A stretch of 64,000 nucleotides of DNA from Rhodopirellula bahusiensis. Lineage in GTDB: Bacteria; Planctomycetota; Planctomycetia; Pirellulales; Pirellulaceae. This document shows positions 27,140-29,732 of this stretch, piece by piece (the stretch's first letter is position 1; every line of letters starts with the position of its first letter). Under the pieces are notes generated by a model. The model made no database searches, had not been told where the DNA came from, and was given only the letters and a program-made list of their open reading frames with translations. The DNA lies in contig NZ_NIZW01000001.1 of the NCBI RefSeq assembly GCF_002727185.1, positions 372,001-436,000 of the forward strand. The letters are read 5' to 3'. Both the position numbers and the translations under genes were made by a program.

Positions 27140-27440
27140 ACAACAACGTAGCCGACGGAGGCCCTCTGTCGGCAAAACAGTTCTGCCATGCGATCACATT
27201 CGGATGCTCGTGGACTTGTGTCCGCCGGGGAGATCAATCGCTTGCTGCGATTGGTGCGTTCAGGCCGACTGAGAGCCTCAGTCGGCTACATGGTTGCTGG
27301 TCGGTGGTTGGCGAGGGTTTGTGGATGGTTGCAGCGGGATGGGGGCCTCACAAGGCGTTGACTTGATCGGCGACGTTACTGAACTGCCATTCGGTGTGTC
27401 AGTCGATTCAGGGCGGGCCTCCGCACGATGAGCAACTACG
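27140..27440. other. Intergenic island, left side of the group II intron
   Basis: These 301 bp contain one hairpin-doublet repeat (27149-27290) and the 3' exon flank of the intron. No gene is supported. The sequence next to the intron end, CGTAGTTGCTC read on the minus strand, completes the ...GGCTA of the 5' exon to GGCTAC, the same bases that follow intact hairpins nearby. Confidence 0.6.
27149..27290. repeat. Hairpin-doublet repeat, copy A
   Basis: Two hairpins facing each other: 27151-27173 (GCCGACGGAG / CTCTGTCGGC, one G-U) and 27264-27286 (GCCGACTGAG / CTCAGTCGGC, 3-nt loop). They are joined by a spacer containing CTGCGATTGGTGCG, which is similar to the spacer of the two copies right of the intron. 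It is the most diverged of the three copies. REP/BIME-like in architecture. Confidence 0.65.
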
Positions 27441-27482
27441 ATAGGGGTAGGGAAGTCCGGTTGAGCCGGACTCCCCTCCCTC

Positions 27483-27516
27483 AGAACCGTACGTGCGGTT
27501 CTCCCGCATACGGCTC
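27483..27516 (-). ncRNA. Group II intron domain V
   Basis: A 34-nt hairpin on the minus strand beginning GAGCCGTATGCG and closing with GCACGTACGGTTCT. The length, the near-terminal pairing and the position just before the 3' end match catalytic domain V. The maturase stop codon is only 5 nt upstream, so the reading frame fills domain IV completely. Confidence 0.88.
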
Positions 27517-27521
27517 GCCAG

Positions 27522-28901
27522 TCAGTGGGTCCCGTCGAGGGATTGAACGTAAGCTGAGTGGGCTAAACGCAGACTTCGATAACCTCGCTCGCTGAAGTAG
27601 GCATTGGGCCAACGATGAGTGCGACAGAGCCGCTTGGGGTTGCGTCGATGACGCTTCAAGAGCTGACGTCGCAGTCGTTTGCGGACCATCCCGTCGTACT
27701 TGTCGAAGATGTTCCACGTACAGTGACGAAAGTAACTGAACCAACCCACCGTCACGCGATTGATCTGTGCGATCGTCGCTTCCATGGATTGGCCGCTCTT
27801 CCGGGGCGTTAACCGTCGAATCGTGTCGACCATCTTCTGGTGACTCTTCGCGCGAGGAAACCGGAGCTTCCCGCGGAACGAGTACCCAAGAAAGTCAAAA
27901 CTCTTGACCCGACTGTCAACGATGTGCGTCTTCTCGGGGTGCAACGTCAAACCGGCTTCACAGACGAAGCGTTTGACTTCCTCAAGGGCCAACTCCGCTT
28001 GCTCCTGACTACGACACAGGATCACAAAGTCGTCAGCGTAGCGAACCATTTCATAGCCCAGATCGGCCATCCGGTGGTCCAGCTCGTTGAGGTACAGATT
28101 GGATAACAGCGGGGAAAGCACAGCCCCTTGCGGCACGCCACTCTCAGGCGTCCACTCGCGAAGTTCCTCCAGGACCGATTGGTCCAAGAATAGCTTCACC
28201 AGATCCAATACCCGGCGATCCGAAATCTTCTCGCTGACCAAAGCCAGCAAGCGGTCTTTCGGAATCGTGTCGAAGTAACCTTGCAGGTCAGCATCGACCA
28301 CAAAGACATGACCGGTCTCCAGTAACCCTTCGACCACTCGCAGTGCATCATGACAGCTGCGGCCATGGCGGAAGCCGAAGCTTCTTTCATGGAACTCGTT
28401 GTCGAAGATCGGTTCGATGACGTTGACCAATGCCGTTTGCACGACGCGGTCTCGAACCGTTGGAATTCCCAAAGGCCGCGTTTGTTTGCTGCCCGGTTTG
28501 GGAATTTGCACCCGACGTACCGCCTGTGGGCGATAGGTGTCGGTTCGCAACTGTTCATACAGTTGCTTGATCTCAGCGATCTCCTGTTCGCTGAAATCCT
28601 CGGTGCTTTGCCGATCCACTCCCGCTGCTCCCTTCTTGCCGACAACCTTGCGGGCCGACACGAACAGGTTCAGCTCACGGTACACCTTGTCAATCAAGGC
28701 ATGCCATTTACCTCCTCGCACTCCTACGGACAGTGCGTTCAACATACGATCCGTCCAGACACTGCGATTCGCCCACGAAGAAATCTCAATTGCTGACTTC
28801 TTCTCAGGTTCTCCAGCACGGCTAGCCTTGGCCGACGGGGATTCCGCCGAAAACGGCACTGTCACCGGGATGTAGTCTTTCGATTTACGTTTCGCTGGCA
28901 T
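27522..28901 (-). CDS. ltrA: Group II intron reverse transcriptase/maturase
   Basis: A 459-residue intron-encoded protein from an ATG at 28901. RT blocks are in order: R-x-V-x-I-P-K-P-G-S-K-Q-T-R-P-L-G-I-P (RT1/2), SFGFRHGRSCHDAL (RT2a/3), VDADLQGYFDTIP (RT3), SGVPQGAVLSPLLSNLYL (RT4) and the polymerase catalytic RYADDF with YADD at about 288-291 (RT5). Domain X (maturase) follows: RVTVGWFSYFRH and YDGMVRKRLRRQLLKR. There is no HNH endonuclease domain at the C-terminus, as in several bacterial classes that enter single-stranded or hairpin-adjacent targets. It helps the intron RNA to splice and copies it into new DNA sites. No frameshift is seen, so the element may be active. Confidence 0.95.
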   Translation of the reverse strand: MPAKRKSKDYIPVTVPFSAESPSAKASRAGEPEKKSAIEISSWANRSVWTDRMLNALSVGVRGGKWHALIDKVYRELNLFVSARKVVGKKGAAGVDRQSTEDFSEQEIAEIKQLYEQLRTDTYRPQAVRRVQIPKPGSKQTRPLGIPTVRDRVVQTALVNVIEPIFDNEFHERSFGFRHGRSCHDALRVVEGLLETGHVFVVDADLQGYFDTIPKDRLLALVSEKISDRRVLDLVKLFLDQSVLEELREWTPESGVPQGAVLSPLLSNLYLNELDHRMADLGYEMVRYADDFVILCRSQEQAELALEEVKRFVCEAGLTLHPEKTHIVDSRVKSFDFLGYSFRGKLRFPRAKSHQKMVDTIRRLTPRKSGQSMEATIAQINRVTVGWFSYFRHCTWNIFDKYDGMVRKRLRRQLLKRHRRNPKRLCRTHRWPNAYFSERGYRSLRLAHSAYVQSLDGTH

Positions 28902-29403
28902 GGTCTTCTCGTATCCACTTCCCTGCCTCCCTTCGCTCGCACCGGGTTTGGTTCCCAGTGGTCGACACTACTATGAAGGCTCTGACTTCTCGGCTGAGCT
29001 TCAGCGGTCTGCTGCTCGCCGAGATCTCCCTGCTTCTCTCGATTGAACTTCCGAACATTCCGTCTCCAACCACCGCATCGCCATTTCGCCACGCTCGATT
29101 TCTCACGTTACCGAGTTCGTTCATCGTCGCGGCTGCTGCACCGACCGCCCGCACAGTCGTCGGGCTGACCTAGACCGGTCATCGCTGGGCCGATTGCGTG
29201 CAGTCAAGGGTTCGCTCATTGCTAGAAGGCTCCCCGACAGGCTTGGCCGAATCGAGTTCACAATACAGTTACGGACTGCTCATTCGCTTTTGGTTGCTCT
29301 CCACCCTTTCTGTTGAAAACGCAGTTACCATCAGCTACGGGGCGGTAACGAATTCCCCGGTCAGGACTTTCACCTGACAATTCAATCGCCTTTGCAGGCG
29401 CAC

Positions 29404-29554
29404 TAGCCGACTGAGGCCTCTCAGTCGGCAAAACCCCACCAGAAACGCACCAACCCCGCGAAGGCTCATCACCTCATTCCCCGCAGCCCCAACACGAACT
29501 GCGATTGATTGCGCTCAAGCCGACGGAGAGCCTCCGTCGGCTACAGGTTGGTGG
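29404..29554. repeat. Hairpin-doublet repeat, copy B (split by the intron)
   Basis: Hairpin 29406-29429 (GCCGACTGAG / CTCAGTCGGC, loop GCCT, perfect 10 bp) and hairpin 29519-29541 (GCCGACGGAG / CTCCGTCGGC, loop AGC, perfect), joined by a spacer of about 90 bp with CATTCCCCGCAGCCC. The group II intron abuts the left hairpin, separated from its stem by TA. Nearly the same sequence recurs as copy C about 178 bp to the right. Confidence 0.75.
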
Positions 29555-29581
29555 CACCATCCAATTCCGATCCAGCACCCG

Positions 29582-29732
29582 TAGCCGACTGAGGCCTCTC
29601 AGTCGGCAAACCACACCTGAAACGCACCATCCCCCCGAAGACTCGTCCCCTCATTCCCCGCAGCCCCCCAACACTAACTGCGATCGGTTGCGCTCGAGCC
29701 GACGGAGGGCCTCCGTCGGCTACAGGTTGGCT
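29582..29732. repeat. Hairpin-doublet repeat, copy C
   Basis: Hairpins 29584-29607 (GCCGACTGAG / CTCAGTCGGC, loop GCCT) and 29698-29720 (GCCGACGGAG / CTCCGTCGGC, loop GGC), with the same spacer words as copy B (CATTCCCCGCAGCCCC, AACTGCGAT, GGTTGCGCTCGA). Copies B and C are close to identical in layout, so they probably arose by tandem duplication. Confidence 0.75.

Follow-up and report, generated by a model that had tools for sequence, protein, structure and literature searches.

A group II intron of Rhodopirellula bahusiensis, placed outside class C by its protein and seated in GTAG-tagged REP-like hairpins

The stretch of DNA analysed here (the window) comprises 64,000 nucleotides of Rhodopirellula bahusiensis (contig NZ_NIZW01000001.1, positions 372,001 to 436,000). 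Its minus strand carries a group II intron that runs from GTGCG at the 5′-end (29403) to CCCCTAT at the 3′-end (27441) and that meets the definition of such an element: a GUGYG end, a domain V, a bulged A in domain VI and an RT/maturase encoded in domain IV. The domain V–VI unit (27441–27518) matches the Rfam family Intron_gpII with 55.1 bits (gathering threshold 40). No endonuclease domain is called in the RT/maturase ORF, since Pfam at an E value of 0.001 returns RVT_1 and the maturase domain GIIM alone. In the predicted fold, intron positions 180–183, which form EBS1, are part of a short apical loop, and EBS3, the partner of IBS3, was not located in the intron. A structure prediction from a 5-row alignment reached a mean pLDDT of 44.3, and no conclusion was drawn from it. 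The first-pass annotation had described the GTGCG end, a bulged A eight bases from the 3′-end, a full RT/maturase and a 5′ exon made up of a perfect 10-bp hairpin (29406–29429) plus TA, with GGCTAC restored when the exons are joined. These features are all borne out (GGCTA plus C gives GGCTAC), but domain V, given there as 34 nt, counts 33 nt.

Table 1. Coordinates of the intron, its parts and the surrounding REPs in the window.
Feature	Position	Strand	Remarks
Group II intron, 1963 nt	27441..29403	−	ends set by 10 other 5′ and 10 other 3′ genomic junctions
Intron-encoded RT/maturase, 459 aa, RT + X	27522..28901	−	TIGR04416, 376 bits
Domain V, 33 nt (8 bp, 2-nt bulge, 5 bp)	27484..27516	−	
Domain VI bulged A, presumed branch point	27448	−	from the fold; function inferred
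Domain I region, Rfam group-II-D1D4-4	29264..29379	−	44.6 bits, under the cut-off of 49
EBS1 (UAGC), apical loop	29221..29224	−	co-varies with IBS1 lineage-wide
IBS1 (GCTA), 5′ exon; its GC is also the hairpin stem base	29404..29407	−	
IBS3 (C), first 3′ exon base	27440..27440	−	C in 11/11 readable 3′ exons of this genome
Interrupted REP, 10-bp hairpin, CTA|C tag split by the intron	29406..29429	−	
Intact REP, hairpin + CTAC	27148..27172	−	
Intact REP, hairpin + CTAC	27265..27289	+	
Intact REP, hairpin + CTAC	29520..29544	+	
Intact REP, hairpin + CTAC	29581..29606	−	hairpin identical to the interrupted one
Intact REP, hairpin + CTAC	29699..29723	+	

The intron is positioned within an array of hairpins that alternate in orientation (27148–29723). 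A unit of about 178 nt occurs twice in this array, with 29431–29490 and 29608–29667 (60 nt) being 88% alike. Matching arrays with intact REPs are present in genomes G130 and G186; next to neither of them was the 3′ flank of the window locus located, and no clean orthologous empty site was obtained.

The R. bahusiensis assembly (G000; 7,784,569 bases in 63 contigs) contains one complete intron copy and many junction pieces, mostly at contig ends, as is expected when an assembly breaks inside a repeat. Eleven 5′ junctions (loci L001–L010 and L021) and eleven 3′ junctions (L001 and L011–L020) are readable, and 10 of 11 copies are known solely as pieces at or near contig ends. All 11 of the 5′ junctions read hairpin-GCTA|intron and every readable 3′ exon starts with C, a site rule that is observed directly. 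The hairpins at these sites are of three kinds: CCGAC..GTCGG (six sites), CTCGG..CCGAG (three) and GCGTCTC..GAGACGC (two). The first-pass annotation had proposed as target a chromosomal repeat hairpin lying about 2 nt from the intron, and had named copies at hairpin-less sites as what would refute it; no such copy turned up among the 11 readable 5′ junctions, and most readable relatives agree with the proposal as well. Further matches in the assembly include a 40-nt match to the intron 3′-end (98%) away from a contig end (C24:33136–33180; L022, L023), which is also seen in inverse at 85%; two domain V-like matches at the family cut-off (C1:230096–230208, L025, 40.1 bits; C8:46913–47025, L026, 40 bits); and a partial second RT (C1:292805–293296, L038) with 43% identity over query residues 256–418.

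Because CTAC complements GTAG, the target hairpins look like GTAG-tagged REPs, palindromes that are linked to RAYT transposases. One superfamily of repetitive extragenic palindromes bears GTAG as its tag; it occurs in the PVC superphylum with the Planctomycetes named and is hypothesised to be mobilised by RAYTs; the criteria given are a GTAG tag, a palindrome of 5–13 bp, many copies and a RAYT in the genome (PMC3733652, in the parts available). REP-associated transposases recognise single-stranded REPs through the tag and the palindrome, according to the accessible text of PMC8266576. The target in the R. bahusiensis genome meets these GTAG-REP criteria. Stricter patterns of the three hairpin kinds followed by CTAC gave 28, 27 and 8 uninterrupted matches in this genome, where the same three patterns read backwards gave none each. 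The Y1 transposase family has 10 matches in the genome, nine of them above the cut-off; a hairpin with CTAC abuts five of the 10 loci (L027, L028, L031, L032 and L036), lies at a distance from one more (L029) and is absent from the other four. At L031 the hairpin of the interrupted REP occurs four times, on both sides of the transposase gene. With a model for REP-associated transposases, the L031 ORF scores 66.5 bits (below the cut-off of 80) and the L032 ORF 181 bits. The identification as GTAG-REPs thus rests on the tag, the palindrome, the copy number and neighbouring RAYT-like genes. As several sequence kinds of REP are used, the cue is a hairpin plus the tag complement and not one sequence; this cue, together with the placement of the protein outside class C described below, goes beyond the earlier reading of the target.

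Related introns obey a similar site rule, spelled with different letters. RT matches at an E value of 1e-60 are found in 39 of 199 genomes of the host family, including other intron lineages at 35–42% identity. A scan of named genomes gave seven loci, among them Rhodopirellula rubra (95%), Neorhodopirellula pilleata (90%, frameshifted) and an Opitutales MAG (75%), and beta-proteobacterial plasmids hold relatives at about 50% identity. The presence of the lineage outside the Planctomycetota (L039 in the Opitutales MAG; L145 and L146 on Burkholderiales plasmids) suggests horizontal transfer. For junction reading, the 5′-end pattern admitted GGTGC, found among others in the R. rubra copy, besides GGTGA, and a hairpin was scored when at least six net pairs formed within 8 nt of the insertion site. 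Non-tandem 5′ junctions of the lineage were readable in 54 cases (17 in genome G117), and 46 of these satisfy the rule. When 56 flanks (the 54 of the lineage and two of other introns) are dinucleotide-shuffled, the rule is met in 3.5% of 11,200 sequences, and the hairpins at the sites are not put down to chance. The 54 remain from 58 rows after removal of the tandem copies L059 and L159 and the references L152 (class C) and L153 (another class); the class C loci L149 and L160 had no row. Also absent are loci without a readable 5′ junction, such as L107 (one of 18 G117 copies), L057, L060, L066 and the 5′-truncated G130 copy (L046/L143). The rule failed at eight of the 54 junctions (L040, L063, L065, L113, L116, L121, L145 and L146). 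These include the frameshifted copy L040, whose IBS1 fails too; the G117 sites L113, L116 and L121, which have mismatched stems; and the beta-proteobacterial L145 and L146, which have a 5-bp stem.

Head-to-tail tandem copies, in which the 3′-end of a neighbouring copy serves as the 5′ exon, were seen at L059/L126 (G021), at L159/L164 (Paraburkholderia plasmid pBN3) and at L206 (G105). A third intron lineage of the host family (L219/L220, G028) has the 5′ exons CGTAGCCGAA.TCGCGC, and no hairpin was seen at its two copies.

In genome G117, 14 of the 17 readable 5′ junctions satisfy the hairpin rule, all 17 of the 3′ exons start with C, and 14 of these 17 start with CGTAG or CGTGG (seven each). 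In the stretches fetched from this genome, its two hairpins occur uninterrupted and with CTAC or CCAC 11 times in all, beside introns and not at its RAYT loci. Taken with the 3′ exons, these copies indicate that the G117 intron tends to sit where two inverted REPs meet. For G072 and G109, the sequence covered consisted of fetched stretches and not of whole genomes, and it held no uninterrupted copy of either site hairpin; for most relatives, evidence that the hairpin is a REP is lacking. The first base of the 3′ exon is A, G or T in some relatives other than G117. A hairpin alone may suffice for the wider lineage.

EBS1 was located through its match to IBS1 in the R. bahusiensis intron and then read at a fixed offset in the other copies. 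The pairs recovered include UAGC/GCTA, UAGG/CCTA, GAGC/GCTC, GUGC/GCAC, UGGC/GCCA, GUGG/CCAC, CCCC/GGGG and ACUA/TAGT, and IBS1 in relatives can be GGGG, GCAC, GAAG or TAGT. With G-U pairs allowed, all four nucleotides of IBS1 pair with the copy's own EBS1 at 40 of 44 junctions with a readable EBS1, and pairing is incomplete at the other four (L039, L040, L052 and L065). The 44 do not include nine R. bahusiensis copies that are cut off short of EBS1, to which a permutation analysis assigned the full copy's EBS1. Across 14 lineages, 13 were fully paired when 4.1 were expected, and none of 20,000 permutations reached 13, a figure that serves only as a guide, some of the 14 lineages being close kin. 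EBS1 and IBS1 are thus observed to covary. The G117 EBS1, UGGC, reads GCCA by Watson-Crick pairing and GCTA through a G-U pair, and we infer that EBS1 follows the REP tag.

Judged from sequence alone, the lineage is not class C by its protein, whereas its RNA gives a mixed picture and the RNA class is unsettled. In a 37-row protein tree the lineage forms a clade (98/99) separate from class C plus L073 (97/96), and in a 39-row tree the lineage and class C are separate clades with 100/100 for both. The class C clade is composed of GsI-IIC, the E.r. IIC protein, GsI-like plasmid introns and, in the 39-row tree, two integron-borne introns. Deep branches are unresolved in these trees, long branches are flagged in the 39-row tree, and the lineage is possibly a sister of class C, a relation that the trees do not exclude. 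Among the reference entries, we take 7uim to be E.r. and 6me0 to be TeI4h, and L163 is only presumed to belong to class D. The Sinorhizobium meliloti pSymB locus L147 was considered as RmInt1 (class D) and rejected, the tree having placed it in class C. Classes D, E, F and g1–g4 are those defined in PMC3552965, as far as its available text goes. With regard to the RNA, the best D1–D4 match of the window intron is RF02003, below the cut-off; this family is also weakly matched by the relatives L123 (31.2 bits) and L054 (28.9 bits), and the relatives L117, L129, L144 and L145 match none of the D1–D4 models. RF02001, the class C family, is matched by four of six class C references, L147 and L151 being without any group II match.

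These placements bear on whether the element is simply an ordinary class C (IIC) intron whose hairpins are transcription terminators, which we regard as improbable. Exon recognition is indeed class-C-like, in that class C introns use an upstream hairpin, a 4-nt IBS1 and a single-base IBS3 (PMC10190682 and PMC7923331, from the parts seen of each), and all three are met here. Moreover, GsI-IIC is the best solved-structure match, one relative, from Paraburkholderia (L146), matches RF02001 over D1–D4 with 41.8 bits, and the sister relation remains possible. Against this stand the separation of the two clades in both trees and the upper stem of domain V, which has 5 bp in four planctomycete members (L001, L117, L129 and L144) and 3–4 bp in four class C references; it has 4 bp in L145. 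The terminator part of this explanation can be compared with class-C-type copies from the same host family (G105, G006 and G097), in which a run of 5–7 T precedes the intron in 15 of 16 cases, a hairpin preceding the T run by eye; the remaining copy follows another intron's end instead. In the protein trees the G097 intron lies within class C and the G006 intron beside it, the G105 protein being unplaced, and RF02001 was met in all four of the 16 controls tested. In none of the 11 R. bahusiensis 5′ exons do the final 14 nt contain a T run longer than 1. The missing T runs refute terminator hairpins as the target, and the two intron lineages of one host family therefore use two kinds of hairpin.

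A closer competitor holds that only a hairpin and a matching IBS1 are needed and that REPs are the commonest such sites. This overlaps with REP targeting, so that the odds of the two are not exclusive; as a full account we find it unlikely, though it deserves serious consideration. It accommodates the distinct kinds of hairpin at the R. bahusiensis sites and the relatives that use other IBS1s and hairpins not shown to be REPs. The window has 60 GCTA|C sites; six of them come with a hairpin, five of the six being REPs, so that the two readings predict nearly the same sites. What a hairpin alone would not require is that most G117 sites lie where two inverted REPs meet. It could also be supposed that the copies were spread by REP/RAYT transposition or by recombination, with the intron as a passenger and without retrohoming, all R. 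bahusiensis copies with a readable junction being in RAYT-type repeats. We give this very little credence and have rejected spread as a RAYT passenger: past the repeat, the flanks differ between the R. bahusiensis copies except for L003 and L009, which have one repeat in common, three hairpin kinds are used, and a passenger would have no need of an EBS1 that co-varies with IBS1.

The explanation that we favour, and hold to be highly probable, is that of a mobile group II intron whose lineage lies outside class C and whose insertion sites are GTAG-tagged REPs, recognised through the hairpin, a 4-nt EBS1–IBS1 pairing and IBS3; in this host the lineage would be a REP specialist. The mobility itself is inferred, as is splicing of the transcripts. 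The RNP, composed of the intron lariat and the RT/maturase, is predicted to dock on the REP hairpin as it folds in the strand reading hairpin-CTAC, where both the formation of the hairpin in single-stranded DNA and a contact between its stem and the protein are inferences. EBS1 (UAGC) would pair with GCTA, the four bases directly 5′ of the site, and one further intron base with the C directly 3′ of it, with reverse splicing then expected between CTA and C. In the absence of an endonuclease domain, cDNA synthesis would be primed from the replication fork. The hairpin may replace the IBS2–EBS2 contact, with IBS1 abutting or overlapping the stem. Docking, reverse splicing and fork priming are drawn from group II intron biology and from the E.r. 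IIC structure (PMC10190682, consulted in part). With its GTAG tag split by the insertion, that REP is predicted to be disabled for the RAYT.

The closest known systems are the group IIC introns at intrinsic terminators (GsI-IIC and E.r. IIC), which likewise are without an endonuclease domain, have a hairpin upstream of the site, an IBS1 of about 4 nt and a single-base IBS3, with no IBS2 seen. The window lineage differs from these in its separate protein clade, in the longer upper stem of domain V and in the R. bahusiensis hairpins, which are GTAG-REPs without a T run; the stem ends 0–5 nt from the insertion site in this lineage versus about 6 nt or more in the E.r. complex (PMC10190682, same partial text). 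Group IIC-attC introns of integrons are similarly specialised on the folded strand of a recombination hairpin belonging to another mobile system, but they use attC instead of a REP, with a TTGT/T site (PMC7923331, available portion), and the 39-row tree places the two integron-borne introns within class C, unlike the window lineage. A 2015 review credits terminator and attC specificity to class C alone and site-directed homing to all other lineages (PMC4424553, available extract). IIB introns near attC sites have been described in an integron study, the halophile cases being, like the window lineage, non-class-C introns near hairpin-forming sites; they are few and belong to classes CL1 and E, and that study states that a role of upstream secondary structure had not been reported for IIB introns and speculates on one, while its available part contains no multi-copy site rule or EBS1–IBS1 covariation (PMC7923331). 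REPs are known as specific landing sites of the insertion sequences ISPpu9, ISPpu10, ISPa11 and ISRm22, which differ in being DNA transposons; the one group II intron entry there (two of nine copies, P. putida KT2440) is not among the elements listed as type 1 in the excerpt available (PMC1525189). We found no description of a REP-specific group II intron in the open-licence literature.

Whether the lineage is a distinct group II class, sister to or apart from class C and specialised on RAYT-linked REPs with an EBS1 that tracks the local REP tag, is a question on which we find the case evenly balanced. The inferred matches would be UAGC for GTAG, UGGC for both GTAG and GTGG, and GUGG for GTGG. 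If this is true, the evolution of one mobile element keeps track of another's recognition tag, which is broken up when the first element inserts, and hairpin recognition is either older than class C or evolved twice. With a second hairpin-targeting lineage, natural EBS1–IBS1 covariation and dozens of readable sites, the origin of hairpin targeting becomes testable. The intron may need only about five bases and a hairpin. The finding ties retro-introns to RAYT/REP biology and may represent a separate way of choosing safe landing sites, beside small repeated hairpins that are themselves thought to be mobile.
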